This document shows, piece after piece, positions 4,281 to 64,000 of a stretch of DNA of 64,000 nt. Source of the stretch: Bolinopsis microptera. Lineage: Eukaryota; Ctenophora; Tentaculata; Lobata; Bolinopsidae. The stretch's first letter is position 1. Every line of letters starts with the position of its first letter. Below the pieces are notes generated by a model that was not told the DNA's origin, did no database searches, and saw only the letters and a program-made list of their open reading frames with translations. The position numbers and the translations under genes were made by a program. The stretch spans positions 19,072,975 to 19,136,974 of the forward strand of contig NC_087077.1 of the NCBI RefSeq assembly GCF_026151205.1, read 5' to 3'.

Positions 4281-4436
<156 letters not shown>

Positions 4437-29321: not shown

Positions 29322-30985
29322 TTGAGAGGGTATAACCATAAGAGAGGCGCCATTCACTTCCTACAGTAAACTCGGAAAAGTGTTTAATATTAAAGAGAAG
29401 AGGTAAACAGTAAGAAGTCTTCCAGTTCACTCCTTACAGTAGAACTCGAAAAGTTTGAATATTAAGATGAGATGTATAACCATTAAGAAGGCGTCCAGTT
29501 CACTTCCTTACATAGAACCTGAAAAGTTTTAAATATTAAGATGAGAGTATAACCAGAAAGAAGGCGCCCAGTTCACTTCCTTACAGTAGAACTCTGAAAA
29601 GTTCAATATTAAGATGAGAGGTATAACCACAATAAGAGCTCCTGTTCACATCCTTTAGCATTAAACCTGAAAAGTTTTAATATTAAGGATAGAAGGTAAA
29701 AAACCACAATGAGGAGGCTCCAGGTTTTTTTTTATTTAGTTCACTTCCTTACAGTAGAACTCTGAAAATTTTTAATATTAAGAGAAGATATAACCAGCAA
29801 GAGAGGCGTCCAGTTCACTCCTTACAGTAGAACTCCTGAAAATTTAATATTAAGATGAGAGTATAACCCAGTAAGAAGGCGTCAGTTCACTTCCTTACAG
29901 TAGAACTCTGAAAAGTTTTAATATTAAGATGAGAGGTATAACCACAAGAGAGGCGTCCAGTGTCACAACCTTAGCGAGTAAACTCTGAAAGTCTTAATAT
30001 GAAGATGAGAGGTATAACCACAAGAGAGGCGTCCAGTTCACTTCCTGACAGTAGAACTCTGACAAGATTTAATAATAAGATGAGAGGTACACCCAGCAAG
30101 AGAGCGGCCAGTTCACTTCCTTAACAGTAGAACTCTGAAAAGTTATTTAATATTAAGAGAGAGGTTATAAACCAGCAAGAGAGGCGTCCAGTTCACTCCT
30201 ACAGTAGAACTCTGAAAAGTTTTAATATTAAGATGAGAGGTATAACCAGCAAGAGAGGCGTCCAGTTCACTTCCTTACAGTAGAACTCTGAAAAGTTTTT
30301 AATGATGAAGGATGAAGGTATAACCAGTAAAAGGCGTCCAGTTCAATTCCTTAGCAGTAGAACTCTGAAAAGTTTTAATATTAGATGAGAGGTATAACCT
30401 GCAAGAGAGGCGTCCAGTTCACTTCCTACAGTAGAACTCCTGATAAAGTTTTAATATTAAGATGAAGGTATATCCACAAGAGAGCGTCAGTTCACTGCCT
30501 ACCAGTAAACTCTGAAAAGATTTTTAATATTAAAGATGAGAGTATAAACCACAAGAGAGCTTCCATTCACTCCTTACATAGAACTCGAAAAGTTTAATAA
30601 TTAAGATGAAGGTATAACCATTAAGAGAGGCGTCCAGGTCACTCCTTACAGTAGAAACTCTTGCAAGTTTTAATAATAAGATTAAGTATACCACAAGAGA
30701 GGCGTCCAGTTCACTTCCTACGTAGACCTCTGAAAAGTTAAATATTAAGATTAGGTACTACCAGCAAGAGAGGCTTCCAGTTCAACTTCCTTACAGTAGA
30801 ACTCTGAAAAGTTGCATTATTAAGATGAGAGGTAAAACCATTAAGATAGGCGTCCAGTTTCACTTCCTTACAGTAGAACTCCTGGAAAAGTATTTAATAT
30901 TAAGATGAGAGGTATGACCAACAAGAGAGGCGTCCTGTTCACTCCTTACAGTAGAACTCTGAAAAGTTTTAATAATAAGATGAGA
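29322..30985. repeat. 76-bp satellite, about 22 copies
   Basis: The unit contains AACCAGCAAGAGAGGCGTCC, AGTTCACTTCCTTACAGTAG, AACTCTGAAAAGTTTTAATA and TTAAGATGAGAGGTAT in that order. Copies are head to tail with no unique spacers, which rules out a CRISPR-like array. Differences between copies are mostly one-base insertions and deletions, often in homopolymers, a pattern more like unpolished long reads than normal satellite divergence. Confidence 0.9.
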
Positions 30986-32429: not shown

Positions 32430-33530
32430 GAACTGGACAGTTAATCCAGAATAATAAAATGTAACCCTAAAAATTATTTATATTACATAATTTTGTGAAA
32501 CAAAAAATCAGACAGTTCAGGTGAGATTGTAGCTTCCTTGAAAAAACAACATATAATACGATACACACACACGTCACACGAATGGAGGAATGAAGATTAC
32601 TGAACAATAGCTCTGAAGTTTCTCCTTTAAGAGAACCAGAGGAAACTCTCGACATCCCCACGAATATGGCTCCGACATCTGTTAGCACATATCTACTACA
32701 CAGTACCTGCAAACATCATAATTATTACTTAATACGTTTAGTAGTTTATCATTTATTCACTCGACACGCCATTTAGTTACATAAATCAAGTGCTACATTA
32801 ATTAAAGACCTAACGTAACGATAAATGATCCCGCCACGAATATCCGACAAAACGAACCTGGATCCCATCTCATGAAGCAGCTGAGTTTTCTCCTCTAAGT
32901 TACCGAATACGGGGTAGGCGGTTATTGTATTGTTGATCTGTTGTTAGTGTTGTTAACGTTGCTTCTAGGTCGCTCAATTTCTCACATCAGAAATAACAGA
33001 CTTGTTAAAACGTTACGTAAACAGTCAAAAGGCAGATTGGTTAAGATGAAAAATCCGCAGCTATAACTAACGTTGCGGAAAGCTATCCAGTTATTGGTTT
33101 TAAAAAGATAAATCGTAATTCAAATCCAATCCAACGTATCCGAATAATCCGAACATTGAAGTGACTTAGATATATGGTTACACATTCCATCATCCAGTTA
33201 AATTTAGCATCAAGAAACTCTAAAAACGAGGGTAGGGTAAACCAGACACTAAATATCAAACTGTATATTGGAGAACAGGACAGCTAGTGCCAAGGATGAG
33301 GGATTGGGACTGCGATGGAGCAACACGACCGTCTAATTAGTTTATAAATCCAGTCGGATTCGATATTTGAAACCGAACCACATTAATAAAATTCTAGACC
33401 ATACAATCGAAAATTTCCTGTATCTCATGTTGTTGTGGGTCTGTTAATTGAATGCTGAAATCAGTTCGCTCTGCGATACTATAATGATCATAACACGATT
33501 ACCAGCTTTATATGCACCTTCCAGCAGATA
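32430..33530. other. Non-coding region upstream of the ATG4-like exon
   Basis: A minus-strand open frame at 32467-32712 follows a plausible acceptor and could be another exon of the same gene, but it has no motif I can tie to ATG4. The rest shows no recognisable feature. Confidence 0.35.
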
Positions 33531-33534
33531 AACC

Positions 33535-33905
33535 ACAAGTAAAAGACAGAGTAAACCACAGCCTAAACCACAGACTAGACCACAACTAAACCACAGACTA
33601 AACCCACAGAACTAAACCACAGACTAAACCACAGACTAGACCACATACTAAACCACAGACTATACCACAGACTAGACCACATATCAAACAACAGACTAAA
33701 CCACAGACTAAACAAGACTTAACCACAGACTAAACCACAGCACTAAGACCACAACTATCCTACAGACTAATCTACAGACTAAAACCACAGACTATTAACC
33801 ACAGATTAAACCACGGACTATAGCCACATACTAAACCAGCAGACTAAACCACAGACTAAACCACAGACTTAACCACAGACTAAACCACAGACTAAACCAC
33901 ATGAC
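33535..33905. repeat. 12-bp minisatellite AAACCACAGACT
   Basis: About 30 tandem copies with frequent one-base gains and losses. Confidence 0.9.
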
Positions 33906-34917
33906 TTACCCTTCTAAGGTACTCTTGCAGTCAAACTAGTGATAACAGCAAGAGAAAGCTACCCGATAGGAAATGCTGTACTCATCGACACGTCCACTCC
34001 AGGAACCATCGTCATACCATCCTTCCTATTCAAAACATGTCTGCTGAATATACATATTTTGTTACCTTATATGGTATGGTTGAAGCGCATTTGCTGAACT
34101 GCTTCACATATTGTTTATTTCCTAATTAGGTATTACTCTTGAAAGTTCCCATCTTGAACATAACTACATCTACTTTCCTACAACTAATAAACTCTTATGA
34201 AACAAAAGTTAAAAGAGTTGTCCACTCACTGTTAGATATATCATGTGAGAAATAAATGTCCAGTTCATAAGTAATATTATTGCGACAACTACAATCAGTA
34301 GCATATGCATTTGTTAAAAATGACACAAAATTCAACATGTACAATTCTGATTTATTAAACACAAAAAGGCCATATAATTGAAGTAAAATTAACTGAAAGA
34401 TAACGACTTCGAGCTCAAAGCCACTCCACTTCGAGTCATCTACTTCAGCAAATTAACATCCAGAAAATATCGTTAAAACCTATTTGAGAACAGCCTAGAG
34501 AATATGCATTTTCAAAATTAAAGTCACTATTACTACCACACTAATCTTTACAACCATGTAACATACATCACAAACCGTATAATCTTAAATGCTAAAAAAT
34601 ACTAGCGTTAATATGATTTTCTTTATCATCATCATCGTCCACTATCAGCCAATTTAACATCATACTCTACTTTTACCTAAGTTTTCATTTGCTTGCTGTT
34701 CTGTCCCTTTAACAGCTCAGTAACAAGGTGGAATTTGTCCTTGTTATCACATCCGGAGTCTGTCTTTGGCTACCATGTATTTCGATTCAGGAATGTTTCA
34801 TTTTCTCATGTTTAGAGTCTTGAAGAATGCCTCTGCTTCTGGTTAGGTCTCTCCGACCACCGTCCATTTACAGCGATGACTATTGTGAGGTACCGTGATT
34901 TGAAGTACCGGGCACGC

Positions 34918-47640: not shown

Positions 47641-47956
47641 TGCCTAAACGTGCAGAAGTGAAAACAAATAAATAAAATATACTAGCAGTCCTTAATACTC
47701 GTAATAAATAGATTCATTCAATGTCATAAAACTCTTAACCATACACGTGACCAGTAAAATAATTTAATTGGTCTATAGACTACTGTATAAAATTCTCAAT
47801 ATAAAAACTTTATTAACAATAATAAATTAGTTAATGATCATCAAATCATGAAATTTTTCTGTCCCTCAGATCAGGTCAAAGCCCTATTCAACCGACTAAG
47901 AAATTGTTTCTTGTTTTAATACTTTCAACACTACTATATAACAAATAATTTGAGGG

Positions 47957-48916
47957 ATGGAAGAAAAGAATGTACCCGAGAGGGCGTCGATGCGTAAGAA
48001 GAAACGAGAAGTAAAGATAAGCCCCCCAAAAGCTAAGTCAACAGCCGAGGATGTTTCTGTGCTTGCTGCAGAAGAAAAATACTGCCCTTGTGAAATCTTT
48101 ATGGCTGATGAGTTATCTTTGGAATGTGAAGCCTGTACGTTGTTCTGGCATTCAAGTTGTGTTGGCCTGTCTGGGTTGACAAATGATATGTTAGGACATC
48201 TGACTAACTGGAAGTGTCCCATTTGCTTTGTGGCACCCCACACAGTTAAGGACACTGATGACCAGAGAGCTGTCAGGGCTATTGTCAAAGAAGAGCTCCA
48301 GAAGTTCACACCAGCTTTGGCGAACTCGTTAAAAACAGTTCTCAACAACAGCACGGACAAAAGTGTGAAAAAAGCTGTTAGTCTCTATTCAGATATTACA
48401 GCTAAGTCTCAACAAACTGTTCTGAAAGATCTCAAAAGTTCAGAAACAACCAAAGAAGTTGTCCAGCAGGTACAACGTAACATTGATGCAGACAGGGTGG
48501 AGAGAGAAAGAAAGAAGAAAAATGTCTGCATCCTGAAGGTACCGGAAAGCACCAAAAACAGTGTCAAAGATCGTGAAAAAGAAGACATCGACTTTTGCAT
48601 CAACTCACTCGAGATGGATAATGGAGACATTGTGTCCTGCTTTAGAGCTGGCAGAGTCAATAAAGACATACCAGAGTACTGCAGGCCCCTTATTGTCAAA
48701 CTCTATGACGTAGAAGACGTAAAGTACTACACGAATGGAGGGAGAGGATTCCGGTCAAAGAGTGGTCATTGGATAAACGAAGATCTGTGCAGAGCTGACC
48801 GTAAGGCAAATTTTCAAGCACGGGAGGAAGCAAAGAAGAGGAAAAAGCAGAAGAATGCAGAGAAGAGTCAGAAGATCGAAGAGAAGGAGGAGGAAGCTAC
48901 GGTTGCAAAGGAATAA
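47957..48916 (+). CDS. LINE A ORF1: PHD finger + coiled coil + RRM-like protein
   Basis: 319 codons from an ATG after an AT-rich leader to TAA. Residues about 36-95 form a C4HC3 PHD finger (YCPCEIF, CEACTLFWHSSC, WKCPICF). A helical Lys/Glu-rich segment follows, then KKKNVCILKVPES...SCFRAGRVN...RPLIVKLYDVED, the pattern of the RNA-binding RRM-like domain seen in many LINE ORF1 proteins (Transposase_22-like), and a basic/Glu-rich tail. Its presumed role is nucleic-acid chaperone in the retrotransposition particle; the PHD finger may bind histone tails. ORF2 starts in the -1 frame right at the ORF1 stop. Confidence 0.75.
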   Translation: MEEKNVPERASMRKKKREVKISPPKAKSTAEDVSVLAAEEKYCPCEIFMADELSLECEACTLFWHSSCVGLSGLTNDMLGHLTNWKCPICFVAPHTVKDTDDQRAVRAIVKEELQKFTPALANSLKTVLNNSTDKSVKKAVSLYSDITAKSQQTVLKDLKSSETTKEVVQQVQRNIDADRVERERKKKNVCILKVPESTKNSVKDREKEDIDFCINSLEMDNGDIVSCFRAGRVNKDIPEYCRPLIVKLYDVEDVKYYTNGGRGFRSKSGHWINEDLCRADRKANFQAREEAKKRKKQKNAEKSQKIEEKEEEATVAKE

Positions 48917-48921
48917 GCATA

Positions 48922-51859
48922 TTGTATACTAATGCTAGTGGATTCTTTAACAAAATAGATGAAGTAAAATGTTTATTGATGCTAAACAAGAACATTGATA
49001 TTATATGTGTCACGGAGACACATTTTGATAATGATATTTTAGATGATGAAGTTCAAATTGATGGTTACACAATTTTTAGAAAAGACCGTGACTTTAAAAT
49101 TGAATCTTCTAAAAAGGATATTAGTTCTGGAGGAGGGTCCATCATTTATGTTAAGAATTATACGTATTAATTCATCATTAGTAGAAGAAAGTTGTAATGC
49201 ACTTGATTCTTTAGCTGTGTTAATAGATACTGCAAGTGGTAAACTTTGTATTGGATGTATTTATAGATCACCATCTTTAAATTCTGACCAAAATTTTAAA
49301 TTAATTTCTTTTCTTAAAAATATTTGTAATGTTAATAATGATTTTGAAACACTCCTGGTAGGAGACTTTAATTTACCAGATGTCTCTTGGGAGACTGGTT
49401 GTGTAAATGGAGGTTTGGTCAGCACTAATAAGTCATTCTTGAATCAAGAAATCTATATTGATATGTTTAACGAAGCAGGGTTGTCCTGGTATTTTACTAC
49501 TGAAATAACTAGGCGGCGAGTTGTGAAGGATAGACTCCAAGAGAGTCTGCTGGATCAAGTACTTTCCACCAATGATGCACTTATTAATAAATACACAGTG
49601 CTGTCCCCGATTGGCAAAAGTGATCATGTCAGTGTGGTAGTCGATCTAAGTGTTTCTTTAGATTCAATTAAATGTAAAGAGAAGATTCTGAAACCATCAT
49701 GGGTTAAAATAACTAATGATGATATTTTAAAGTTTAGTATTGAAAATATTAACTGGGATTTTAGTTGCTCTAATGATGTTCAGCTTATGTGGGATGAGTT
49801 ACATGGCAAACTTACGACTGTTGCTGGGATAGTACCGACTAATTCGGTCTATAACAACAACAGACCTGTGAAGCTGCCATGGGACACATCCTCATTGAAG
49901 CGCATGAGAAAGAACAAAGATAAAGCATGGACTGCATTTGATATTGAACCTTCTAGTGTTAATCTTAGTCATGCAAGTAGTAAACAGCTCATATATGAGA
50001 ATGAGGAAGTGAAAGCAAAGATAAGATATGAGAAGAAGATAACTTCCAATTTAAAGATCAATTGTAAATCATTTTATTCTTATTTGAGAAATAAGAGAAA
50101 GGTTAAAGCTTCGGTACCAAGTTTAGATAAGGAAGACGGTACACGGACAACTAGTGCAGGGGAGTCTGCAGAGGTACTTGCAAGTGCCTTTAGTTCGGTG
50201 TTTGTTAATGAGCCACTTGGCCCATTACCTAGAAGTTATAGTAAGAATACTAATAGTATATCTGATATTGTTATTACCTTTGATAAGGTTAAAAAGGAAC
50301 TATTAAAGCTTAATATTTTTAAAAGCACTGGCCCAGATGGGCATCATCCAAAGCTGCTCAAGTCCCTAGCTGGAGATGCTAGTTTTGTAACAGCTCTTAC
50401 TAAATTATTTAGTGCCTGTAGTGATACTGGAAATCTTCCGGAGGTATGGAAGTCGGCATCTGTAGTTGCACTTTTTAAAAAGGGCTCTAAGTCTGACCCT
50501 CTTAACTATAGACCAGTTTCTCTTACTTGTATTCTTTGTAAAGTTTATGAACAGTTTGTTAGATCCCATGTGTTAGAATTTTTAGAAGACCGTATTTCAA
50601 AGGACCAACATGGCCATGGGTTTGTTAAAGGAAAATCTTGTTTGTCAAATCTTTTGGAGACTTTCGACACTATACTTAATTTAATAGATGAAGGTGCTCC
50701 TGTGGACTTATTTTATTTTGATTTTAGTAAAGCTTTCGATTCTGTTCCCCATTATCGCTTGATTAACAAGCTAGAGAGTCTAGGGATAACTGGTAAAGTT
50801 TTAGATGTAACTACAGATTTTATCTCAAATACAACTATGAGAGTGTGTGTAGAAGGTGAAACTTCAGAGTGGAAGATTGTATGGTCAGGAGTTCCCCAGG
50901 GATCAGTCCTTGGACCATTACTATTTGTGTTATTTATTAATGATTTACCAGATAAAATTAAAAGTAAAGTTAAAATATTTGCTGATGATCTTAAGCTTAT
51001 AGCTAATGCCTCCGAGCATGAAACTATAGTTAATGATCTGAATGAACTAGAGATGTGGGAGAGTAAATGGCTTTTAAAGTTTAATCCTACTAAGTGTTCA
51101 GTAATGCATTTAGATGTTAACGATAACCCAAGATCAAGTTATTCTCTTAATGGAGTTACATTGGCAGAATCTGTACAGGAAAAAGACTTGGGAGTTATAA
51201 CCCATAACTCTCTGCTTTGGAATGAACAGATTAAGGCTTCAATATCTAAAGCCAACAGAATGATATGTTGGATTGTTAGAAATCTGATTATCAGGGGAAA
51301 ATCTGTGATGATATCCATTTACAAAGCTTTGATAAGACCCCATTTAGAGTATTGTGTTCAATTGTGGAGTCCAGTTGCGGCTCATGGAAGTTGGGGGATC
51401 ATCTTGGAGCTGGAGAGCGTCCAGAGGCGGTTTACCCGTCTGATTGACGAGGTGGGTACTCTTCCATACAGTCGTCGACTGGAAATCCTCAATTTAACAA
51501 CGCTGGCAGAGCGGCGAATACGTGGGGACCTCATTGAATCTTTTAAAATGATAAGTGGTTTGGCCAACTACGGAGCTGATTTGTTCAGTATGCGCAGATC
51601 TGGTCTTAATGTGGTATCAAACAGTAGATGCAGTAAAAGTAGCAGTAAAATGAAGAAAGTCCATAGTTCTTTTCTTCCGGAGAGGGTGAGACCATATTGG
51701 AACAAACTCCCCTCGGATGTCAAGAATTGTGGGACTGTGTTAAGTTTTAAAATGAGATTAGAGGCTTTCAAAAAAGAGACTATTTTAAACGGATCTGTAA
51801 ATGACAGTCATTTTTGGTATATTTCGGACGAAGTATTAATGAAACTAATAAATCAATGA
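48922..51859 (+). pseudogene. LINE A ORF2: endonuclease-reverse transcriptase, one frameshift
   Basis: The endonuclease begins LYTNASGFFNKIDEV and includes the catalytic Glu in ICVTETHFD, in the frame ending at 49170. One base shift at about 49155-49170 moves the rest into the frame ending at 51859. There YRSPSLNSD, LVGDFNLPDVSW and SDHVSVVVD complete the EEP endonuclease. The reverse transcriptase follows (GPDGHHPKLLK, NYRPVSLT, FDFSKAFDS, GVPQGSVLGPLLF, FADDLKLI). Apart from this single shift the 980-odd codons are open. The copy is therefore recent, and the shift could be a read error. No ATG is evident at the junction with ORF1, so -1 frameshifting or reinitiation is likely. Confidence 0.75.
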
Positions 51860-52324: not shown

Positions 52325-55300
52325 AATTCATCAACTTTATTAAGTACCTATCAAAAATAAATCTTATATCAATGTAATATATTAAAAATCATAATCCTAA
52401 GTCTAATAATAAATCTGTTAAAAACACTTTCTCACTACACTGCGCTCACACACGTTAGTAAGACAAAGGAAAATGCACACCCAGCTAATTTTCAATTTCA
52501 AGATAATCATTTTGGATGTGTGGACCCTAGGGTAGACTTAATGTCAAAATTTAGATTAGAGCATTCGAAATCTTTGTTTGTCCAATCAAGATCAGCATGG
52601 TTATGCTGGTTGACGAGCAGTGATTGCTTCATCCTAGACTTCAGGCAGGCCACACTTAGACAGTAGTCACGTATACCAAGCTTAGGCACAATTACGTTCC
52701 AAATACGAGTCGTTCTGCTATTGAAGTTGTCAGGGGGGTCTGCTTGGCTTAGTATAAGGGTGGGTTTCCTACTTGAGCAGGTGAAATTTTCATGGAGGGA
52801 AATCGGAGCACGGAATTTCATGATTTTATAGAGCTCAAGGAAACAATGGTAAGTGTACAGGTTTTGGACGGCAAGTATTCCGTGTTCCTTGAACAAAGGT
52901 TTTGTGTGCTCTTTCAAGAAAAATTTTTTGTTCAGATTTTGGTTGCCAAACGGTCGAGCACGAGCACAGGTCTTAAATTTATCTAGGTATGCCTCCCTGT
53001 CGCCAAACAGTACCCTGAGACAATATTTTTGTGCTTTGAATACAGAACTTATACGAGTTTTGGCTGCCCCACCCCAAACCGTGATACAATAGGAGAGGTG
53101 TGATTCAAATAGAGTGTAATACAACTGGCGGTGTAAGAAATCTGGGAGGGAGCAGCGTAGGCGGCAGAGAGTTGATGTTGCATGGCTGAGAGAACGCCTA
53201 AGTGATTTTATATGTTCTTCCCAGGTTAGCTTTTCATCGATGACGACTCCCAGAAACTTAGCAGATGCAACTTGTTTTATTGGAAAGTTATCAATGGTTA
53301 GAGTATATTCAGAATTATTGTCAGTCTGGGAGGACGATGCTGGTTTAAAGTGAATGAAACAGCATTTAGACAAGTTGACATGGAGTTTGTTTGCTCGCAT
53401 GTAGGAATATAAACTAGCTAAAAGAGAATTACCACGCATATATGCCTCCTTTTTAGATTTCCCAGTCACAAATATATTGGTGTCATCAGCGAAGGTGACA
53501 AATGATCCCAAACTGGAGCTGTTGGCGATATAATCATTAATATATAGGAGAAATAAGAGAGGTCCAAGAATCGAACCCTGAGGGACTCCAAACTGTATTT
53601 TCAAGGCGTCAGATTTCTCACCAACAACTTCAGTATATTGTGATCTATTTGTTAAGTAACTTTTTATAAGATCATTTGCCACCCCACGTATCCCATAGCC
53701 CTGTAATTTGACAAGTAATGTACCATGATCTATTGTATCAAAAGCTTTGCTAAGGTCTATGAATATGCCTAAGACATGATGCTTAAGTTTTAGAGATTCA
53801 GTTATAAGGTTTACTGAGTGATTAACTGCATGTGAAGTAGAGTGTGACTGCCTGAAGCCAAATTGTGTTTTAGATATTATACCCTGTGAGCTAGCAAACG
53901 AATATATTCTTGAGTAAATGATCTTTTCAAAGATTTTACCAAATATAGAGAGAGTAGAGATTGGGCGGTAGTTTTCTATCTCTTCAGGGTTTCCCTTCTT
54001 AAATACAGGAGTTATTCTACCAGTCTTTAGAACGTCGGGGAACGTGCCATTAGACATTAAGATGTTGATGTATCGACTAAGGATCGGTGTAATTACGTGA
54101 GATGATCTTTTGATTACACTAACAGGAATATCACTTGCTTTTACATTTTCAAATCCTTTTATTATTTCCGTTATCTCATAAGGTGTACAGTCTTCTAACA
54201 TAATCGATTTTTCATTAGTCTTTCCAAGGAAATCATAGAATGTTTTTATAGGGAGAATTGGTAAACCAGAGGCCTCACTGCTACTAAGTGTTTCATTGAG
54301 CTTAGGGGCAATAGAAACAAAGTAAGAGTTGAATCCATTGGCTATGACTCTACGATTCATGATTCGTTCGTTGTTTATGATAAAGGGAGGCTTAGTTTGC
54401 TTCTTTTTCTTGCCCCTGAGCTCATTGATTATCTGCCACGTTTTTTTGCTGTTTTCTATATTTTTATGGATTTCATTGCAGTAGTACGATCGTTTGGCGA
54501 CCTTGATAATACTTTTAAGCATTCTTCGGTAGTCACTGAAGACTTTATAGAGCAGTACATTACCCTCAGGGTTTCTATTTGTTACAGTGCTTGACCAGTC
54601 TCTACAGAGTTCATGTTTTCTTTCAACTGAGACAATGATTCCATCGGTAATCCACGGGTTGAGTTTGGGAGTCCTTTTGGTAACTTTTGGTACATCAAGC
54701 TTACAGTGTTTATCAAGTGTTTCATTGAAGCAGTCCAAGAACTCATTGAAGTTTACCGAGGGAGTCAAGTCATTCACCTTCACCTCGAGTTCATTAACAA
54801 AATTAGTGAGTTTGGAACTTGAATAATCATAGTAGCGAACATGTTTAAGTTTTTCAGTACTGTTTTCGGTAGGAATTGACGTGAAGGTGAATATAAAGGC
54901 ATGGTCACCAATCCTATCATTCAATACACCGGAGAGAAGTACATGATCTATCTCTGATGTGAGGATATTGTCAATACATGAGTTTTTACAGTTAGGACGG
55001 AAGTGGGTAGCAAGTGATATAGTAGGATACATATTGTTACGAAGTAACGTGTCCTCAAATAGCTGGCTGGAGGTTTGTACATTGAGGAGGTTAGAGTTAA
55101 AATCGCCAAGAATATGGAACTTTTTACCAGCCAACTGCTTAGATATATCCTCAAGAGTTTGACAAAAGGTCTCACTACAGCCATTTGGAGGACGATAAGC
55201 AACCCCATATGTCAGTTTATCACCCGAGCTAAGAGTAATTTCAACAAATAAGCACTCAATATCTTTTGTACAGTGAGATAGATTTTCGATTACTACAGCA

Positions 55301-56063
55301 TTCAGGCGATCAGAGACATATAAGGATACTCCTGTTCCTTTTTTCTTATCAGGGAATGGTACTTGACAAAATGTTGTATAGGAGGGGATTTGGTATAAGC
55401 CTTGTTGGCTTGGATCGATGTTGGTCTCAGCCAATCCAATGACATCAAAATTACACGGGAGGGTCTTATGTTCTATTAAAAAGCTGTCAAAATTACTAGC
55501 AAACCCATCTATATTGCAAAACAGAGCGGGCAGATAAGCAGAATTTTTATTTTTCTCAGGAAAAAGTTTGCTGATTGAGTTTGCTAGTTCTTGTTTTGTG
55601 TAACGCTTACAGTCTTCAAGTATTGAAGAGAATTTAGCTATGGTGACATCTTCCTGGTTGTTTGTATCATAGAATTTATCTGAATCATCATACCTTTGGC
55701 TGCTTGGAAATGGGCAATACCTATCTTCTATTGTACTACAGCAATCACTGCACATCCATAGACCGTTTTTGCTTGTAAATTTCGCGGATCTGAAGCACTT
55801 AGTATGAACAACTTTGCTGCAATTTTCACATTCTAAGAGTGGCTGGCCAATATTAATGTATTTACTACAGGGGTCGCACACATCTTTAATACTTTCAACA
55901 CTACTATATAACAAATAATTTGAGGATGTAGATCGAGCCTTCGAGCCGCAATCAATGTCTGAGTAAAAGAATGATCACTGGGGGATGATGCGAAGGTGTC
56001 CAAAAGGATGTTGCTGCCGGCGATGATGCTCCAACTGAAGATGAGTAGATTATGAAATTCCAC
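52325..56063 (-). mobile_element. LINE B (same family as C), lacking ORF1
   Basis: A minus-strand copy with an open ORF2 and a 3' UTR to about 52325 that resembles the one after LINE C (CACACAC/GTGTGTGAG words, AT-rich tail). Upstream of ORF2 only about 150 bp can be attributed to it and there is no ORF1, so it is 5'-truncated close to the ORF1/ORF2 boundary. Confidence 0.75.
52507..55914 (-). CDS. LINE B ORF2: PHD finger + endonuclease + reverse transcriptase
   Basis: An open frame of 1,135 codons with no ATG near its start; the first codon given is TTG and the frame continues upstream. The N-terminus is a PHD finger (CDPCSKYINIGQPLLECENC ... HTKCF ... WMCSDC). The EEP endonuclease follows with GLAETN, AYRPPNG, LGDFNSN, SCIDNIL and an intact GDHAFIF. 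The RT has NYRPIST, FGFRQSHST, FIDLSKAFDTIDH, GVPQGSILGPLLF and FADDT. The C-terminal part includes a Cys/Arg-containing segment near YTCSSRKP-like residues shared with LINE C. The reading frame is fully open, so this is a young copy although it lacks ORF1. Confidence 0.8.
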   Translation of the reverse strand: MLYSSVESIKDVCDPCSKYINIGQPLLECENCSKVVHTKCFRSAKFTSKNGLWMCSDCCSTIEDRYCPFPSSQRYDDSDKFYDTNNQEDVTIAKFSSILEDCKRYTKQELANSISKLFPEKNKNSAYLPALFCNIDGFASNFDSFLIEHKTLPCNFDVIGLAETNIDPSQQGLYQIPSYTTFCQVPFPDKKKGTGVSLYVSDRLNAVVIENLSHCTKDIECLFVEITLSSGDKLTYGVAYRPPNGCSETFCQTLEDISKQLAGKKFHILGDFNSNLLNVQTSSQLFEDTLLRNNMYPTISLATHFRPNCKNSCIDNILTSEIDHVLLSGVLNDRIGDHAFIFTFTSIPTENSTEKLKHVRYYDYSSSKLTNFVNELEVKVNDLTPSVNFNEFLDCFNETLDKHCKLDVPKVTKRTPKLNPWITDGIIVSVERKHELCRDWSSTVTNRNPEGNVLLYKVFSDYRRMLKSIIKVAKRSYYCNEIHKNIENSKKTWQIINELRGKKKKQTKPPFIINNERIMNRRVIANGFNSYFVSIAPKLNETLSSSEASGLPILPIKTFYDFLGKTNEKSIMLEDCTPYEITEIIKGFENVKASDIPVSVIKRSSHVITPILSRYINILMSNGTFPDVLKTGRITPVFKKGNPEEIENYRPISTLSIFGKIFEKIIYSRIYSFASSQGIISKTQFGFRQSHSTSHAVNHSVNLITESLKLKHHVLGIFIDLSKAFDTIDHGTLLVKLQGYGIRGVANDLIKSYLTNRSQYTEVVGEKSDALKIQFGVPQGSILGPLLFLLYINDYIANSSSLGSFVTFADDTNIFVTGKSKKEAYMRGNSLLASLYSYMRANKLHVNLSKCCFIHFKPASSSQTDNNSEYTLTIDNFPIKQVASAKFLGVVIDEKLTWEEHIKSLRRSLSHATSTLCRLRCSLPDFLHRQLYYTLFESHLSYCITVWGGAAKTRISSVFKAQKYCLRVLFGDREAYLDKFKTCARARPFGNQNLNKKFFLKEHTKPLFKEHGILAVQNLYTYHCFLELYKIMKFRAPISLHENFTCSSRKPTLILSQADPPDNFNSRTTRIWNVIVPKLGIRDYCLSVACLKSRMKQSLLVNQHNHADLDWTNKDFECSNLNFDIKSTLGSTHPK

Positions 56064-56737
56064 ATCACAACACTTAAAACCACCATCCTCTCATAAACTG
56101 CCCCTCCCTAAAAGCTCCTGACATTGATTGCTGGCTTCTGGCTGGTCTCTTCCTTAAATTATTTGTTGTGTGTAAAGTGCTGTTGATTAGTTCCTGATTA
56201 GTAAACTTTATTTATGTATCTTTGTCTCGATTTATTGGATAGTTATTATATAATACAAGTTTCTTACCCAAATTCAAACGAATTACAATACATTAACCTT
56301 ACATAACTTGTATTATTGTATAACCTTAACCAAATTATTTGATTATTGTGGCTTGTTTTACAGTAAATCCCTTTGTGGCAAGCTCGTCGACTACAATTGC
56401 TATTTCTTCAACCAGCTTTCCACAATGTCTCCTTACCCAGGAATCCCACAATTCCCTTTACCCAACCCCAGTCTGCATTATAGTCAAGCTCACCCTCAAA
56501 CCCATAAAGCAATTCCAAACGATACAATATATGCTTCATCAAACCATTTAATCTAATCAACAACATCCACCACCTCAACTACCCGACTATTCACCCTTTA
56601 AGCAACTTATTGTTAATATATCATGTTTCAATCGAAATCAATTATTCTTTATGGTATATCTAATGAAAAAACTAGTTATTATACAGTTTTAAGTAATCAA
56701 TGTTCCCCTTTTTCCATTATAAATCAGACGTCCACCC

Positions 56738-58897
56738 ATGATCTACTCATTTCAGGTGCAGCTAATTCGCCGGTGGTGGCAGCCCAGAGGGCACTCAGCA
56801 CATCCCCGTGATCAATCCACAGTCATGAAGAGAATTCCAACACCACCACCACAAAACAGACGCTCGCCCAGAAACAACTCTCCTGCAGCATCTGTTAAGG
56901 CTAAGGCTACTCCACCTCATTCCCCTAAAGTGACTAATCCTCTTCACAGAAAGAGCCCCCTCACAAGCAAGGCTAATCAGAAGAACCCTGCAGCCAACAT
57001 CTCAGGACGGCGAAGATCAAACAGTCTGCCAACTGAAAAGCTGCTTACTGTTGCTTCACCGGGACCATCAACATTACAGCCACCTACATCTCTGACCCTA
57101 AAAATTAGTCCAAGCCTCATAATAGACCCTGGTGGCCTAAGAGATAGCCCTCATAGCCCTATGAGCCCTATTTACAAACCGTTCCCACCCTTCCATACAG
57201 AAGAAGAAGAAAAAGATCAAGGAAGTCCAAAGCAACGTGCCATTAAAGGTAACTGCCCCTGTCGAGCAAGCTCTGAGGGCAAAGAATGGCTTCTCAAATG
57301 TTGCAGATGCTCTCAGCATTGGCACGCCTCCTGCAGCAACCTCAAGGGAGCAAACCAGATTACAAGTGGCTCCCCACAACAGATTGGTCTTGATGCCATC
57401 CTTCAGTACTGGGAATGTCCATGGTGCTTCACATCAATCCATCCCAAGCCAAACAGCAGCACCGCGTCTAAATTGGATGAAGCTCTTAAGTTTAGCGTTG
57501 ACTACAGCAAAAACATCCAAGCTGTATCTGATGCCATCTCGAGTGCTGTATCCAACAGCATACCCACCGTGGAGATATCTTCACTTGAGTCAAGACTGTC
57601 GCAACTTAGTGAAGAGATTTACTCCTTCCAAAAATCCAGAAGCTCTCAAATGGGCCCTCCAGCAGCAGTCAAACAAGAGATGAGGTCAACAGTAGCCCTC
57701 CCCAAATGTGTAATGCCGCCGATTAAGGACTACCAAGTAGACATCCTAGACAAAAATCTGCTTGATGAGGTCACCAGTTTTCTGACTGAGTGCAAAGAAA
57801 CTGGTAAGTTCAGCCAGATGAACGGAAGGTCAGTCCTTAAATATGGAGAAAGCTACACATACTCTGGAGACACAAACGCCCCCTCCTCTCCAGCCATCCC
57901 ACCACCATTAGCAGCTGCTATTGATAGAGTCACCTCCCAGTGCAAACTTACACACAAGCCTAACTCTGTGCTCATAAACTACTTCCCTCCTAGCACTGGG
58001 GTTGAGGAAAGCACGTTACCCTTCCACTGTGACGATGAGCAAGAAATACTTGCTGACTCCGAAATAGCCACAATTTCAATAGGAGAAGTAAGAAAGATAA
58101 GCTTTGTACCTGTCCATGAAGGCCATTCACCTACAAAAATGACTGAAATGTCCCTGGAATCCAACTCGGCCTATATTATGACTCGTTCCTCACAAGCTTG
58201 GTTCAAGCATGGAATCAAGGCCACCCAAAAAACTGAAGTCAACCCGGCCATTTACGGACGATTTTCCATTACCCTTAGAGCCATTAACAACAAATTCAAA
58301 AGAAGCACGCTCATTATGGGAGATTCGAACACCAAAACAATCAAGTTTGGGTGTGGTGCTGGTACTATGGGCCAGTCTTTCCCTGGTGAAAGAGTCAAGG
58401 CAGGTAAAGTCAGTTTGATTGACCCTTGTCGCTGCATTGGGTACAGCAACGTTGTTATCGTTTGTGGTACCAATGACCTCCGGGTAGAAAACCTTAGAGG
58501 AGAGAATGAAATCCATCAGCTGGTTGACGTTCTCCACTTGAAGATTCAACAGATAAGAAAGCTCTGCCCAAGTATCAAAATATTTGTCGCAGCAGTCCTC
58601 CCATCAAGATTGCCTCAAATGAACAAAAACATTATGACCTTCAATCGGCTTGTTGGAGAAATGTTAAGTGCCAACTTCAACCAGAGTGTGTGGCACCTTG
58701 GAGTTGGCCACTTCTTAGATAGTAGGGGACTCCTTGCCACCAACCTGACCAGAGGTGGTGATGATATTCATTTAGGAGTTTATGGTATTACCAAATTTGT
58801 GAGATGTGTGAAGCATTGGGTGTATGTGAGAGAGAGGCAAGAGCGGACAAGACGTGGAAAACACAACCAGTCAGTGGGGTCTAACAACCCCACTTAG
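56738..58897 (+). CDS. LINE C ORF1: PHD finger + AlkB-like dioxygenase + SGNH esterase
   Basis: 719 codons from the first ATG. A second Met at 56825 (MKRIPTPPP) has a purine at -3 and is the likelier start. Residues 30-160 are Pro/Ser-rich and basic. A PHD finger spans about 171-232 (CPCRAS ... CCRCSQHWHASC ... WECPWCF). Next comes an AlkB-type 2OG-Fe(II) oxygenase: YGESYTYSGD, SVLINYFPPS, the HxD pair in PFHCDDE (His 430, Asp 432), SEIATISIGEVRKI, MTRSSQAWFKHGI (His 491) and GRFSITLR (Arg 508, Arg 514). The C-terminal SGNH hydrolase has MGDSNT (Ser about 530), CGTNDLR (577-582) and DDIH (His about 678). PHD and esterase domains are known in CR1-type ORF1 proteins. The AlkB domain could demethylate the element's RNA or cDNA; that role is inference. 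Confidence 0.85.
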   Translation: MIYSFQVQLIRRWWQPRGHSAHPRDQSTVMKRIPTPPPQNRRSPRNNSPAASVKAKATPPHSPKVTNPLHRKSPLTSKANQKNPAANISGRRRSNSLPTEKLLTVASPGPSTLQPPTSLTLKISPSLIIDPGGLRDSPHSPMSPIYKPFPPFHTEEEEKDQGSPKQRAIKGNCPCRASSEGKEWLLKCCRCSQHWHASCSNLKGANQITSGSPQQIGLDAILQYWECPWCFTSIHPKPNSSTASKLDEALKFSVDYSKNIQAVSDAISSAVSNSIPTVEISSLESRLSQLSEEIYSFQKSRSSQMGPPAAVKQEMRSTVALPKCVMPPIKDYQVDILDKNLLDEVTSFLTECKETGKFSQMNGRSVLKYGESYTYSGDTNAPSSPAIPPPLAAAIDRVTSQCKLTHKPNSVLINYFPPSTGVEESTLPFHCDDEQEILADSEIATISIGEVRKISFVPVHEGHSPTKMTEMSLESNSAYIMTRSSQAWFKHGIKATQKTEVNPAIYGRFSITLRAINNKFKRSTLIMGDSNTKTIKFGCGAGTMGQSFPGERVKAGKVSLIDPCRCIGYSNVVIVCGTNDLRVENLRGENEIHQLVDVLHLKIQQIRKLCPSIKIFVAAVLPSRLPQMNKNIMTFNRLVGEMLSANFNQSVWHLGVGHFLDSRGLLATNLTRGGDDIHLGVYGITKFVRCVKHWVYVRERQERTRRGKHNQSVGSNNPT

Positions 58898-58902
58898 TAA
58901 AA

Positions 58903-61900
58903 ATGATTATGAAAATGATTAAGGATGTGTGTGAGCCATGTAGTAGATCTATTAACATCGGACAACCTTTACTAGAGTGTGAAAACTGTAATAATGCCAT
59001 CCATACTAAGTGTTTCAAATCAGCTAAATACTCATGCAAAAATGGACTATGGATGTGCTGCGAGTGTGCCAGTTCTGCAGAGGAACGGTACTGCCCATTT
59101 CCATCTGATGAGGAATCTATAGATTCTGATAGATTCTATGATAATAGAAACCAGGAAGATGCCGTAATTACATCATATGCCCTTGTACTTGAACGTTGCC
59201 GTCGCTACTCTAAACTCGAGTTCTTAAATGCAATCAAGCAGCTCAATTCCTCAAAAAAATCTATGTTATCAACTTTATTCTACAATATAGATGGAAACGC
59301 ATCTAACTTTGATAGCTTCCTAATTGAACTCAAAAGTATAGGGCACTCGTTTGATATGATTGGTCTTGCTGAAACCAATACTGATCCTGCACAGCAGGGC
59401 CTGTACCAAATTCCATCATACACAGGATTCTATCAAGAAACATTGGCAGGTAAGAAAAAAGGCACAGGTGTTGCACTCTATGTATCTGACCATTTAAATA
59501 CGGTGGTCTTAGAAAACGTATCACACTGTACTACAAATATTGAGAGCCTCTTTGTTGAAACCACAGATAGCGCAGGCAGCAAAATTGTTCATGGAGTCAT
59601 TTACCGACCCCCTAATGGCTGCTTTGATAGCTTTTGTGAAACCCTGGAACTACTTGCAAAGCAGCTAAATGGGAAAACTGTCAATTTGTTGGGAGACTTT
59701 AACTCAAACATACTTAATATTTCTACCAGTTCCCAGCTCTTTGAGGATACTTTATACAGAAACGGCTTTTACCCGACTATCTCCATTGCAACACATTTTC
59801 GTCAAAACTGTAAAAGTTCCTGCATCGATAACATTTTAACAAATAAAATTGAGAATATAGTCTTATCAGGTGTTATTGAAGAACGGCTTGGTGAGCATGC
59901 CCCTATATTTACCTTCACTTCAGTAGAGACCCCTCGCAGTACAGAGCCTCAGAAACATGTCCGCTATTATGATTACTCAAGTTCCAAATTGAAAAGCTTT
60001 GTAACTGAACTTGAGGTAAAGGTAAACCAGCTCACTCCTTCAACAAAATTTGATGAGTTTACGGCATGTTTTGACCAGACACTTGACAAACACTGCAAAC
60101 TGGAGGTACCGAAAGTGACAAAAAGAACTCCCAAACTTAACCCATGGATTACAGACAGTATCATCCAGTCTGTAGAAAGAAAGCATGAACTACGTAAGGA
60201 GTGGTCTGACACCGTTACCAATAAGAACCCTGGTGGTAATATCTTGCTATACCAAGTATTTAGTGATTATCGTAGGATGCTCAAAGCTATCATTAAAGCT
60301 GCCAAACGTTGGCATTACTGTAACGAAATTCTAAACAACTGTGAAAACAGCAAGAAAACCTGGCAAATTATTAACGAACTCAGAGGCAAAAAGAAGAGGC
60401 AAACCAAGCCCCCATTCATCATTGATAACCAAAGAATAGTTGATAGAAGAGCAATTGCTAATGGATTCAATGCTTGGTTTGTCTCTATTGCACCAAAGCT
60501 GAATGAGACACTGAATAATCCATCTAATGGCCTGCCTATATTACCCATGAAAACTTTCTATGACTTCCTGAACCCAAGAAATGAAAAAAATATTAGGTTA
60601 GAAGATTGCTCCTCGAACGAAATATTGAAAATCATAAGAGAGTTCGAAAATGGTAAAGCCAGTGACATTCCCATAAGTGTAATAAAAAAGTCATCTCATG
60701 TAATTGCACCTGTATTATCGAACTACTTCAATATCCTTATGACCCAAGGTATATTTCCTGATGTCCTGAAAACTGGTAAAATAACACCTGTATATAAGAA
60801 AGGTAACCCAGAAGAAATCGAGAACTACCGTCCTATCTCCACACTGTCCGTCTTCGGTAAGATCTTTGAAAAGCTCATATATTCTAGAATATACGGATTT
60901 GTTAGCTCCCAGGGAGTAATATCGAAGACACAGTTTGGATTTAGGAAATCTCACTCTACATCTCATGCAGTCAATTACTCTGTAGATTTAATTACGAAAT
61001 CTCTTAAACTTAAGAATCATGTTTTAGGAATATTCATTGACCTTAGCAAAGCTTTTGACACCATCGATCATTCAACACTTCTTATAAAATTAGAGGGATG
61101 TGGAGTGAGAGGAGTTGCAAATAACCTCATAAAAAGCTACTTAACAAACAGGCAACAATACACTGAAGTTGTAGGAGAAAAATCAGATACCCTATCTATT
61201 CAATTTGGTGTCCCACAGGGTTCAATTCTTGGACCTCTCCTATTTCTTCTTTATATGAACGACATCACAAACAGTTCTAAACTAGGATCATTTGTTACCT
61301 TTGCTGATGATACTAATATATTTGTTGTCGGCAAAACAAAACGTGAGGCATATGAACGAGGAAATGAGCTTTTGTCATCATTACAGTCTTATATGAGAGC
61401 GAATAAGTTACATATAAACATGTCCAAGTGCTGCTACATACACTTCAAACCCAACATGGCAGGTTCTAAGTCAGAGATTTTATCACACCCTGAACCTGTA
61501 CTAACAATAGACAACTATCCAATCAAAAAGGTTTCATCCGCAAAATTTCTGGGTGTTATAATTGACGAGAACCTATCATGGGAAGATCACATTAAAGCTC
61601 TTAAGCGAACCCTAAATCATTCCACATCAACTTTATGTAGACTTCGCTGCTCCCTTCCAGAATTTCTACATCAACAATTATATTATACTCTGTTCGAATC
61701 ACATCTTTCCTACTGTATATCTGTATGGGGTGGGGCAGCTAAGCAACGTATAAGCTCAATATTTACTGCTCAGAAGTACTGTCTCAGAGTACTATTTGGT
61801 GATAGGCTGGCGTACCTTGATAAGTTTAAGACTTGTGCACGTACTAGGCCTATAGGACACCAGAAACTTGACCAAAAATTTTTCATAAAAGAACACACCA

Positions 61901-62268
61901 AACCGATATTCAAGCATAATAATATTCTAGCTATACAAAATCTCTATACATACCACAGTTACCTCGAGCTCTACAAGATAATGAAATTCCGTGCTCCAAT
62001 ATCCCTATATGAGGGTTACACATGTTCGTCGAGGAAACCCTGCCTTCTTATCTGTCAGGTAGACCCACCTGACAACCACAACACTAGGTCAACCAAAATT
62101 TTTAACATTTTAACCCCAAAGTTCAGAATGACTGACTTTACTACTAGTGTAATGTGCTTGCGAGGAAAACTTAAAAGTGCGCTATTAGCCAATCAGCATA
62201 ACCACGCCCTGCTTGATTGGACCGTGAAAGATTTTGACTGCACAAATATTATTTTCCAAACATTATAA
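58903..62268 (+). CDS. LINE C ORF2: PHD finger + endonuclease + reverse transcriptase
   Basis: 1,121 codons starting 5 nt after the ORF1 stop. Residues about 6-58 are a PHD-type Cys/His cluster (CEPCS, CENCNNAIHTKC, WMCCEC). The EEP endonuclease (about 122-340) has GLAETN, YRPPNG, LLGDFNSN and SCIDNIL. The usual SDH block reads GEHAPIF here, so the Asp is Glu, whereas LINE B has GDH. The RT (about 560-860) has GNPEEIENYRPIST, FGFRKSHSTSHA, FIDLSKAFDTIDH, GVPQGSILGPLLF and FADDT. There is no RNase H. The enzyme would nick target DNA and prime reverse transcription there. The N-terminal PHD could guide integration to chromatin marks. Confidence 0.85.
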   Translation: MIMKMIKDVCEPCSRSINIGQPLLECENCNNAIHTKCFKSAKYSCKNGLWMCCECASSAEERYCPFPSDEESIDSDRFYDNRNQEDAVITSYALVLERCRRYSKLEFLNAIKQLNSSKKSMLSTLFYNIDGNASNFDSFLIELKSIGHSFDMIGLAETNTDPAQQGLYQIPSYTGFYQETLAGKKKGTGVALYVSDHLNTVVLENVSHCTTNIESLFVETTDSAGSKIVHGVIYRPPNGCFDSFCETLELLAKQLNGKTVNLLGDFNSNILNISTSSQLFEDTLYRNGFYPTISIATHFRQNCKSSCIDNILTNKIENIVLSGVIEERLGEHAPIFTFTSVETPRSTEPQKHVRYYDYSSSKLKSFVTELEVKVNQLTPSTKFDEFTACFDQTLDKHCKLEVPKVTKRTPKLNPWITDSIIQSVERKHELRKEWSDTVTNKNPGGNILLYQVFSDYRRMLKAIIKAAKRWHYCNEILNNCENSKKTWQIINELRGKKKRQTKPPFIIDNQRIVDRRAIANGFNAWFVSIAPKLNETLNNPSNGLPILPMKTFYDFLNPRNEKNIRLEDCSSNEILKIIREFENGKASDIPISVIKKSSHVIAPVLSNYFNILMTQGIFPDVLKTGKITPVYKKGNPEEIENYRPISTLSVFGKIFEKLIYSRIYGFVSSQGVISKTQFGFRKSHSTSHAVNYSVDLITKSLKLKNHVLGIFIDLSKAFDTIDHSTLLIKLEGCGVRGVANNLIKSYLTNRQQYTEVVGEKSDTLSIQFGVPQGSILGPLLFLLYMNDITNSSKLGSFVTFADDTNIFVVGKTKREAYERGNELLSSLQSYMRANKLHINMSKCCYIHFKPNMAGSKSEILSHPEPVLTIDNYPIKKVSSAKFLGVIIDENLSWEDHIKALKRTLNHSTSTLCRLRCSLPEFLHQQLYYTLFESHLSYCISVWGGAAKQRISSIFTAQKYCLRVLFGDRLAYLDKFKTCARTRPIGHQKLDQKFFIKEHTKPIFKHNNILAIQNLYTYHSYLELYKIMKFRAPISLYEGYTCSSRKPCLLICQVDPPDNHNTRSTKIFNILTPKFRMTDFTTSVMCLRGKLKSALLANQHNHALLDWTVKDFDCTNIIFQTL

Positions 62269-62444
62269 CTGGCTGTTCACACACATCTCAATTAAATTCC
62301 TCTAGGCTACTGTTTTCCAAGTCTTGTCCTGTGAGTAAAGAATGTGTGAGAAGGTATTAATAAAATAAATGTATATTTTTTGAATTTTTAAATCTAATCT
62401 GAGAATGAAGTATAAAGAAATTTTTAATTAGCACTGTATAGTTT

Positions 62445-64000
62445 AAGATATTTATAGCTTATTATAACCATTGATACAAAGGCCATAATCTTTCGCAAGC
62501 TCTTTAATATACACCTTGAAGCCACATTTTATATCCTTGAACCACACAATATAAACTAAAGCATGTTTTAGTGTAGACTTTTTGTCACAACAAGACTGCA
62601 ACCTATAGTAACAACTATAAACAGAACCCCTAATGTCTACTAACAAATTTCTTCTAGTCCTAAAATGAGCCCTGTCTCTAAAAACCTAACTGAACTAGCG
62701 TTTCGGTGTGTGCAAAAGCTTTCAGGCACGCGCATTCCTTGCCCCGTTAGTTACCTGTCCTTCCAAAACCAAACTAGCAGTCAAGGACAAAAAGTCATAC
62801 ACCAATTGGGCATTATATTTTATGAATTGTTTGACATCTTTTTATTCTGTAAAATGTGCTAAAATTAAATTTCTTGTTTCATTGATTTCTTGTTTCATTG
62901 ATCTTTAATAAGTTTCATAATCATGATAAACTAAGTGAGATAAACTCCCACTGGTCGGGTGGCCTTCCTTTGTCTTACTCTCTCCTGTCTCTCCCTCACA
63001 TACACCCACTGTTTCAGACATCTCACAAATTTAGCAATACCAAGCTCTCCGAGATGGATTTCATCACCATTTCTCGTGAGTTTCATAGCAAGCAACCCTT
63101 TACCGTCTAAAAAGTGGCCAACACCAAGGTGCCATACAGTCTGGTTAAAGCTAGAGTACAACATTTCATCAACCAAGCTGTTGAATGCCATAATGTTTTT
63201 ATTCATCTTAGGGAGTCTAGACGGTAAAACTGCTGTGACAAACAACTTCGCCTTAGGGCACAGTTTCTGGATCTGCTGGATTTTCAGGTGGAGAATGTCT
63301 ACCAGCTGGTGTATATCACCAGGTGACTGCACATTTTCAACTCGTAGATCGTTGGTCCCACAAACTAAGATGACGTTGCTATAACCAATGCAGAGCTTAG
63401 GGTCTATTGCACTGACCTTGTTGGCTTTAACACGTTCACCTGGGAAGGACTGTCCAAGGGTTCCAGTACCGACACCGAACTTGATGGGCTTGGTGTTAGA
63501 GTCGCCCATGATGATGCAGCTCCGGCTAAACTGTTTGCTCACAGTTCTCAGTGTGATGGAGAACCTTCCTGTCTGCACAGAAGACTGAGTTTCAGCAGGA
63601 CCTGTTTCATCAATACCGTGACGATACCAGGCTTGTGACGATCGTGTCATCACATACACTGAGTTAGATTCTGGACTCACACTATGAACATACTCAGTTG
63701 AGGCTTCGTTTCCGGTCTCATAGATGCACTTAAAGCACACCTTCCTGACGTCGCCTATGCTGATAGTAGCAATTTCTGAGTTAGCAATAATCTCAGACTC
63801 ATCGTCAGAGTGAAAAGGGAGCTTGCTACTAGTGGTGGTATCAACTGAGGGAGGGTAGCAGTTTATTAGGATGGAGTTGGGCTTATGGGTCAGTCTGCAC
63901 TTTGATGTAACTGCGTCTATGGCTGAGGCAAGGGGTGCTGGGATTGTGGGGGATAGGGGTGGGTCTGAATCACCAGTATAAGAGTAGTCTTCCCCAAACT
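62445..64000 (-). mobile_element. LINE D: ORF1-only chimera with a LINE A-type 3' UTR, runs off the window
   Basis: On the minus strand the ORF1 3' half (64000-62931) is followed, after TTATGAAACTTATTAAAG, by two copies of ATCAATGAAACAAGAA. Then comes a 3' UTR (about 62870-62445) containing ACGGGGCAAGGAATGC, CTTTTGCACACACC and GGTTATAATA. These match the LINE A 3' UTR (51880-52280) in order. No PHD, endonuclease or RT of ORF2 is present. The left part lies beyond the window. Confidence 0.7.
62931..64000 (-). CDS. LINE D ORF1 C-terminal part: AlkB-like dioxygenase + SGNH esterase (partial)
   Basis: The frame is open from the window edge to the stop at 62931, about 356 codons. It begins inside the AlkB-like domain (FGEDYSYTGD), then SILINCYPPS, PFHSDDE (HxD), SEIATISIGDVRKV, MTRSSQAWYRHGI (second His) and GRFSITLR. 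The esterase follows with MGDSNT, CGTNDLR and DEIH. The protein is clearly homologous to LINE C ORF1 but well diverged, and all proposed catalytic residues are kept. This supports selection on both enzyme domains. The PHD finger, if present, is outside the window. Confidence 0.85.
   Translation of the reverse strand, partial: FGEDYSYTGDSDPPLSPTIPAPLASAIDAVTSKCRLTHKPNSILINCYPPSVDTTTSSKLPFHSDDESEIIANSEIATISIGDVRKVCFKCIYETGNEASTEYVHSVSPESNSVYVMTRSSQAWYRHGIDETGPAETQSSVQTGRFSITLRTVSKQFSRSCIIMGDSNTKPIKFGVGTGTLGQSFPGERVKANKVSAIDPKLCIGYSNVILVCGTNDLRVENVQSPGDIHQLVDILHLKIQQIQKLCPKAKLFVTAVLPSRLPKMNKNIMAFNSLVDEMLYSSFNQTVWHLGVGHFLDGKGLLAMKLTRNGDEIHLGELGIAKFVRCLKQWVYVRERQERVRQRKATRPVGVYLT

Follow-up and report, generated by a model that had tools for sequence, protein, structure and literature searches.

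The 64,000-nucleotide stretch analysed here (the window) spans positions 19,072,975 to 19,136,974 of the forward strand of contig NC_087077.1 in the RefSeq assembly GCF_026151205.1 of the ctenophore Bolinopsis microptera. It contains a full-length long interspersed nuclear element (LINE), element A, whose first open reading frame (ORF1) encodes an AlkB-like 2-oxoglutarate (2OG)-Fe(II) dioxygenase domain between a PHD-type zinc finger and an SGNH esterase domain. Element A interrupts a second element, C, and the features of both are listed below in window coordinates.

55885..62900, plus strand: element A, full-length LINE of ~7.0 kb (flank matches to uninterrupted copies of C; junctions read)
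55885..55924, plus strand: 5'-terminal spliced-leader sequence TTTAATACTTTCAACACTACTATATAACAAATAATTTGAG of element A (block shared with other families; spliced-leader RNA gene)
56738..58897, plus strand: ORF1 of element A, 719 residues as an open frame, probable start ATG 56825 (open reading frame list; leader acceptor)
57257..57430, plus strand: PHD-type zinc finger, residues 174-231 (C4HC3 pattern; Pfam matches below cut-off)
57716..58294, plus strand: AlkB-type 2OG-Fe(II) dioxygenase domain, residues 327-519, with ligands H430, D432 and H491, and R508 and R514
58301..58837, plus strand: SGNH/GDSL esterase domain, residues 522-700, with S530, G550, N579, D675 and H678
58903..62268, plus strand: ORF2 of element A, 1121 residues, with an N-terminal PHD/C1-like zinc finger, endonuclease and reverse transcriptase (RT)
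62869..62900, plus strand: 3' tail of element A, two copies of the 16-bp tandem unit ATTTCTTGTTTCATTG (repeat spanning 62869-62902; junction reading)
52507..55891, minus strand: ORF2 of element C, which element A, by inserting here, has separated from ORF1 and from its own first codons
62931..63998, minus strand, continuing past the window to ~65012: ORF1 of element C, AlkB and SGNH (PF13532 at 1.2e-18; 693-residue frame in L029)

Element A is complete and inserted in element C, since two uninterrupted copies of C (L013 and L014) match both flanks on the minus strand, from 55897 to 51838 and from 65401 to 62901, at 99.7-99.8% identity. The insertion sits directly behind ORF1 of C, within the first codons of its ORF2. 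Both junctions carry ATCTTTAATA (55882-55891 and 62901-62910), and because its TTTAATA may equally begin the spliced leader of element A, the target duplication measures 3-10 bp. With this duplication, an ORF2 encoding endonuclease and RT, and no long terminal repeat (LTR), element A is a non-LTR retrotransposon. Pfam matches in ORF2 are RVT_1 (7.4e-37), the only one exceeding its cut-off, Exo_endo_phos (5e-5, slightly under cut-off) and C1_1 (7e-4); the ORF2 ATG follows the ORF1 stop codon after a gap of five bases. A tandem-repeat 3' tail in place of poly(A) is a trait of CR1/L2-type elements, and we term element A CR1/L2-like on its domain content and tail, a label that does not denote placement in an RT clade.

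An earlier note, made from the letters of this DNA, had placed an AlkB domain between a PHD finger and an SGNH esterase in a LINE ORF1, and had named a profile search as the check. That search matched PF13532 to residues 369-514 at 1.1e-16, with 62.1 bits against a curated cut-off of 31.2, and a structure model as well as many relatives now back the proposal. In the model, the domain adopts the AlkB-family jelly-roll fold and superposes on ALKBH2 with 176 aligned residues; a chance match or frame artefact is ruled out by the E-values together with this fold match. PF13532 matches all 14 ORF1s scanned at E ≤ 0.1 (best 2e-21). In alignments, H430 and D432 fall on the HxD motif of ALKBH2 and H491 on its distal histidine, and the HxD...H metal triad with RxxxxxR is present in 14/14 ORF1s and in 57 of the 58 fetched loci of transposable elements (TEs), bearing out the catalytic residues and 2OG-binding arginine read in the earlier note. 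Even ORF1s with as little as 28% identity retain all five of these cofactor and metal residues, and the domain is predicted to be an active dioxygenase. Its best profile and fold matches are the cellular ALKBH2, ALKBH3 and ALKBH8; neither ALKBH5 nor FTO is among the 34 Protein Data Bank (PDB) sequences listed up to E = 0.1, an absence that excludes no relationship. The residue neighbouring HxD varies among TE domains (HxDD, HxDN, HxDS, HxDR), and in the region of the ALKBH2-type double-stranded DNA wedge the loop is short, yet many domains have Phe at the wedge column.

The other two domains of the ORF1 protein score lower. The SGNH fold and active-site residues are present, with a Pfam GDSL score under cut-off. 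The PHD finger has the C4HC3 pattern and sub-cut-off matches to PHD_4 (0.0049) and PHDvar_NSD (0.01); PF00628 matched in 6 of the 14 ORF1s at E ≤ 0.1, and the PDB gave weak matches to KMT2 and PHF PHD fingers. No PHD was found in the ORF1s of L027 and L028, nor in L015, whose frame is without the N-terminal part. The proposed order of domains thus stands with all three recognised, the PHD finger being the weakest by score, and element A ORF1 is predicted to encode one fused protein with a PHD-type finger, an AlkB domain whose catalytic residues are complete, and an SGNH esterase.

We searched the genome (264.65 Mb in 232 contigs, thirteen of which, C1-C13, measure 15-26 Mb) for further AlkB domains. 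Candidate counts are lower bounds from overlapping lists that include host genes, with 150 candidates scored per query. The window domain gave at least 684 first-look candidates, all 150 scored matching at E < 1e-14; the domain of a distant family gave at least 774, a human ALKBH2 fragment at least 589 and PF13532 at least 587. Merging the four lists on contig C1 left 38 distinct AlkB places. Full-length elements that have near-identical copies are among the carriers. In LINE I, the group of element A, ORF1 is mostly PHD-AlkB-SGNH. LINE II ORF1s have AlkB and SGNH without a PHD match (PF13532 in five of five scanned, namely L043, L044, L045, L048 and L050, with GDSL_2 below cut-off in all five), and the RT of one LINE II member, L054, is 30% identical to that of the window. 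In a third type of ORF1 (L057, L065/L066), the protein opens with AlkB and ends with SGNH, and a spliced leader lies upstream. Outside these, L052/L055 (G000 C9:11082000-11095500) encodes AlkB before DUF6570 and Helitron_like_N in one frame, with a PIF1 helicase frame downstream, and is by these domains a Helitron. The AlkB domains of L053, in which SGNH precedes AlkB, and of L063 and L064 cluster tightly with it (100/100), and we take these three as Helitron-like solely by this grouping. The PF13532 search also found AlkB in frames of 3226-3388 residues. The domain is not universal: a LINE at 47914-51856 (plus strand) with a spliced-leader 5' end has a PHD-only ORF1 frame of 320 residues, with no AlkB or SGNH match. 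Viral contigs yielded no confirmed relatives with the queries A2 (27 pattern-matching stretches) and L053 AlkB (three stretches), and none were found in phage records.

Ratios of nonsynonymous to synonymous substitution rates (dN/dS) were computed for ten ORF1 pairs. In the six with usable divergence, three of which are non-independent pairs among A, B and B2, AlkB gave 0.10, 0.11, 0.16, 0.13, 0.08 and 0.08, SGNH 0.09-0.14 and the region preceding AlkB 0.16-0.32. Of five pairs compared for ORF2, four had ratios of 0.07-0.13; the remaining one, A-C, was saturated, as it was for AlkB. The AlkB ratios of the three near-identical pairs were 0.57, 0.87 and 0.69, from only 3, 4 and 7 changes. Since dN/dS is 0.08-0.16 between families as against 0.57-0.87 in near-identical copies, selection maintains the AlkB domain between families, and once a copy is inserted the domain appears to drift.

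To place the domain among its relatives, a tree of 41 rows was built, comprising 33 LINE or Helitron-like rows, two third-type rows and six cellular rows (ALKBH2 and ALKBH3 from both host and human, a host paralogue and L067, the one bacterial homologue from a prokaryote genome scan with host ALKBH2). The root is not fixed, and ALKBH5 and ALKBH8 are not included. Outside the tree stand L029, L034-L036, L038, L039, L042, L047, L054 and L058, the second AlkB of L022, and near-copies and partial domains, of which L015 represents a separate family. The host genes lie in single open frames as far as their domains are concerned: ALKBH2 and ALKBH3 at L040 (C5) and L041 (C2), with a divergent ALKBH3-like paralogue at L062 (C5). 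A 100/99 branch separates all 33 TE rows from ALKBH2, ALKBH3, the host paralogue and the bacterial homologue, and TE rows share 18-31% identity with host ALKBH2 (alignment A4). In this tree they group with neither ALKBH2 nor ALKBH3 as orthologues would, and capture of a present-day host ALKBH2 or ALKBH3 is unsupported. The two third-type rows group with the cellular ones, and their joining the other TEs instead is not rejected (p-AU 0.41); the Helitron rows are nested in LINE I (LINE I plus Helitron 98/99), with LINE I as its own clade likewise not rejected (p-AU 0.22). The simplest reading would be one TE-specific AlkB family that has moved between TE classes.

Sliding windows of synonymous divergence (pS) over 15 ORF1 pairs reveal a mosaic structure in several ORF1s. 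In the pair F-G, pS is 0.03-0.13 up to residue ~185, ~0.5-0.8 across ~190-590 and ≤ 0.18 thereafter; A-B2 is raised across residues ~270-640, L-M is also stepped, and the divergence of L034-L035 is confined to the N-terminal part. Other pairs, such as L-L031, M-L030, Q1-Q2 and L050-L051, have no step. By locus, the stepped pairs are L020 and L022, the window ORF1 and L011, L027 and L028, and L034 and L035, mosaics that we read as the product of recombination between LINE families. Because the divergent blocks also cover the linker and SGNH, and L034-L035 differ N-terminally, this points to general ORF1 mosaicism; swapping of AlkB alone was rejected.

The 5' end of element A is shared with other families. 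The block TTTTAATACTTTCAACACTACTATATAACAAATAATTTGAG, in full or reduced to its 3' 25 bases, occurs at 15 fetched TE loci (L006, L007, L010, L012-L014, L016-L019, L021, L027, L032, L043 and L065) and at two places in the window (55885-55924 and 47914-47954); L011 and L028 have variants, and the leader was not found within the stretches fetched for L009, L020, L022 and L025. Genome-wide, the 25-mer has 1202 exact matches (552 + 650), compared with 0 for the reversed-pattern control, and 185 places have C before it and GTA after it. Among 100 such places listed are two tandem arrays of spliced-leader RNA genes, one on C3 of 36 copies (33 of 35 steps at 589-592 bp) and one on C5 of 12 copies (10 of 11 steps at 854-861 bp). 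A unit of the 591-bp array (L068) contains the leader exon, a GTAAG donor, the Sm-like site ATCTTTTGG and a hairpin, and scores 26 bits (E 0.0018) against Rfam SmY, under the gathering cut-off of 39. On C1, a same-strand copy of the 25-mer lies no more than 3 kb upstream of eight of the 38 AlkB places, where 2000 shifts gave a mean of 0.21 and a maximum of 2; no place has it downstream or on the opposite strand. Judged by their search list and frame length, these eight include LINE I, LINE II and the third type. On this evidence, RNAs of such LINEs had been joined to the host leader by trans-splicing before they were copied. Trans-splicing in ctenophores was reportedly described by Derelle in 2010.

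In the copies L006 and L007, the leader is joined at 56756, behind TTTCAG, which makes ATG 56825 the probable translation start of ORF1. Copies of one family thus occur with or without a 5' region of ~830 bp (window 55925-56755, as opposed to L006 and L007), and these seem to represent alternative trans-splice acceptors.

Elsewhere, the window has two tandem arrays (29738-30985, a 76-bp unit repeated 16.7 times; 33525-33906, a 12-bp unit repeated 31.5 times), a run of 152 G at 4285-4436, and a 675-residue open frame at 15581-17605 (plus strand) that by eye resembles a class V aminotransferase or cysteine desulfurase.

The presence of AlkB in many related TEs suggests that it is used to shield or unmask the genetic copies of these elements, and repair or unmasking of element RNA, or erasure of host marks, as the earlier note envisaged, is plausible from the predicted domains. 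Both ALKBH2 and ALKBH3, like AlkB itself, act on N1-methyladenine (m1A) and N3-methylcytosine (m3C). In the reading that we favour, the ORF1 protein would coat element RNA in the ribonucleoprotein (RNP), where its AlkB domain would oxidatively strip these copy-blocking methylations from the RNA template or first-strand cDNA, and the cleared template would let target-primed reverse transcription cover the full 7 kb; the SGNH domain may anchor the RNP on membranes or lipids, and guidance to chromatin may fall to the PHD finger. We give this model, tethering and guidance included, a probability of roughly 45%. Weighing against it is the occurrence of the domain in a Helitron as well as in LINEs, which fits general anti-silencing better than a role in reverse transcription. 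AlkB might accordingly be guided to chromatin by the PHD finger and serve as an eraser of host-made marks, removing N6-methyladenine from TE RNA (m6A) or from TE or target DNA (6mA). Seven MT-A70-family matches over cut-off, on contigs C2, C9 and C11, would be compatible with such marks, and the only tested TE-borne AlkB that we found, that of an orchid Gypsy element, demethylates m6A in single-stranded RNA in vitro according to the available part of PMC9289625. However, the nearest solved relatives by sequence are ALKBH2, ALKBH8 and ALKBH3 and not ALKBH5 or FTO (no proof in itself), and in human cells m6A promotes L1 while ALKBH5 suppresses its retrotransposition, as reported in the portion of PMC7873242 consulted, so that m6A erasure is of no obvious benefit to a LINE. 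We regard host-mark erasure as possible but on the doubtful side.

LINE ORF1 proteins are expected to bind RNA. As no RRM, CCHC or transposase-22 domain is among the 18 Pfam families listed at E ≤ 0.1 for the 14 ORF1s, the AlkB fold could instead be an RNA-binding or protein-modifying module that has lost nucleic-acid demethylation; the strict invariance of the five cofactor and metal residues would be needless for pure binding and makes this improbable. That the domain is a functionless passenger, a recent single capture of a host ALKBH fragment or a chance match, is hardly credible: the genome does have ALKBH2 and ALKBH3 genes to draw on, but the E-values, the many carrier families, the purifying selection and the separation of the TE domains already contradict it. 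A wider picture for this ctenophore lineage, which we consider unlikely as a whole, would have TEs of several classes (at least two distant LINE groups, the third ORF1 type and a Helitron) sharing an old TE-specific AlkB, usually with SGNH and reshuffled by recombination, as a counter-weapon to host adenine or cytosine methylation of TE nucleic acid, an arms race undescribed in animals.

No part of a LINE is less well understood than the ORF1 protein. That selection maintains a catalytically complete AlkB in ORF1 throughout a large radiation suggests that transposition in this animal is limited by methylated bases in TE RNA or cDNA. The occurrence of a single AlkB family in both LINEs and a Helitron is a pointer to enzymes being shared by retrotransposons and DNA transposons. 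The fused domains, with their varied HxD neighbours, offer a natural series in which substrate choice can be studied.

PHD and esterase ORF1s are already known; AlkB in a LINE ORF1 and in a Helitron is without a precedent that we found, no description being among the matches listed in the open-licence PMC literature (Repbase Reports and preprints lie outside this scope). In the portions consulted, PMC4120745 and PMC3905857 describe CR1/L2-type LINEs with ORF1 types III and IV carrying PHD and/or esterase domains, and one L2 subgroup whose ORF2 probably begins with a PHD domain. Element A resembles these in its two ORFs, PHD and SGNH domains in ORF1 and endonuclease-RT ORF2, but no ORF1 with PHD, AlkB and SGNH is described in those portions, and AlkB, dioxygenase and 2OG have 0 occurrences in the main text of PMC4120745. 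The esterase of zebrafish ZfL2-1, which binds lipids or membranes according to the part of PMC3905857 consulted, is the model for the SGNH role. The cellular ALKBH2, ALKBH3 and ALKBH8 share the fold and catalytic residues, with the TE group standing apart from the first two. Plant RNA viruses (Alpha- and Betaflexiviridae, Closteroviridae) are likewise selfish RNA replicators with their own AlkB, thought to repair viral RNA, as cited in the available part of PMC9289625; likened here by description only, they differ as viruses without integration. Retrotransposons carrying cytosine DNA methyltransferases, as presented in the accessible part of PMC5890265, parallel the repeated gain of a base-modification enzyme, in their case a writer of 5-methylcytosine and not a 2OG eraser. 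The nearest known system is the Ty3/Gypsy elements of the orchid Phalaenopsis, which encode a 2-oxoglutarate-dependent dioxygenase (2-ODD)/AlkB ORF, a recent acquisition by the title of PMC9289625. Both are retroelement-encoded AlkB-type dioxygenases with intact HxD...H and RxxxxxR, yet the orchid enzyme is ALKBH5-like and occupies an additional ORF of a plant LTR element, whereas the domains described here belong to many families of animal LINEs and a Helitron, lie nearest to ALKBH2, ALKBH8 and ALKBH3 and, in LINE ORF1s, are fused with SGNH and mostly with PHD.
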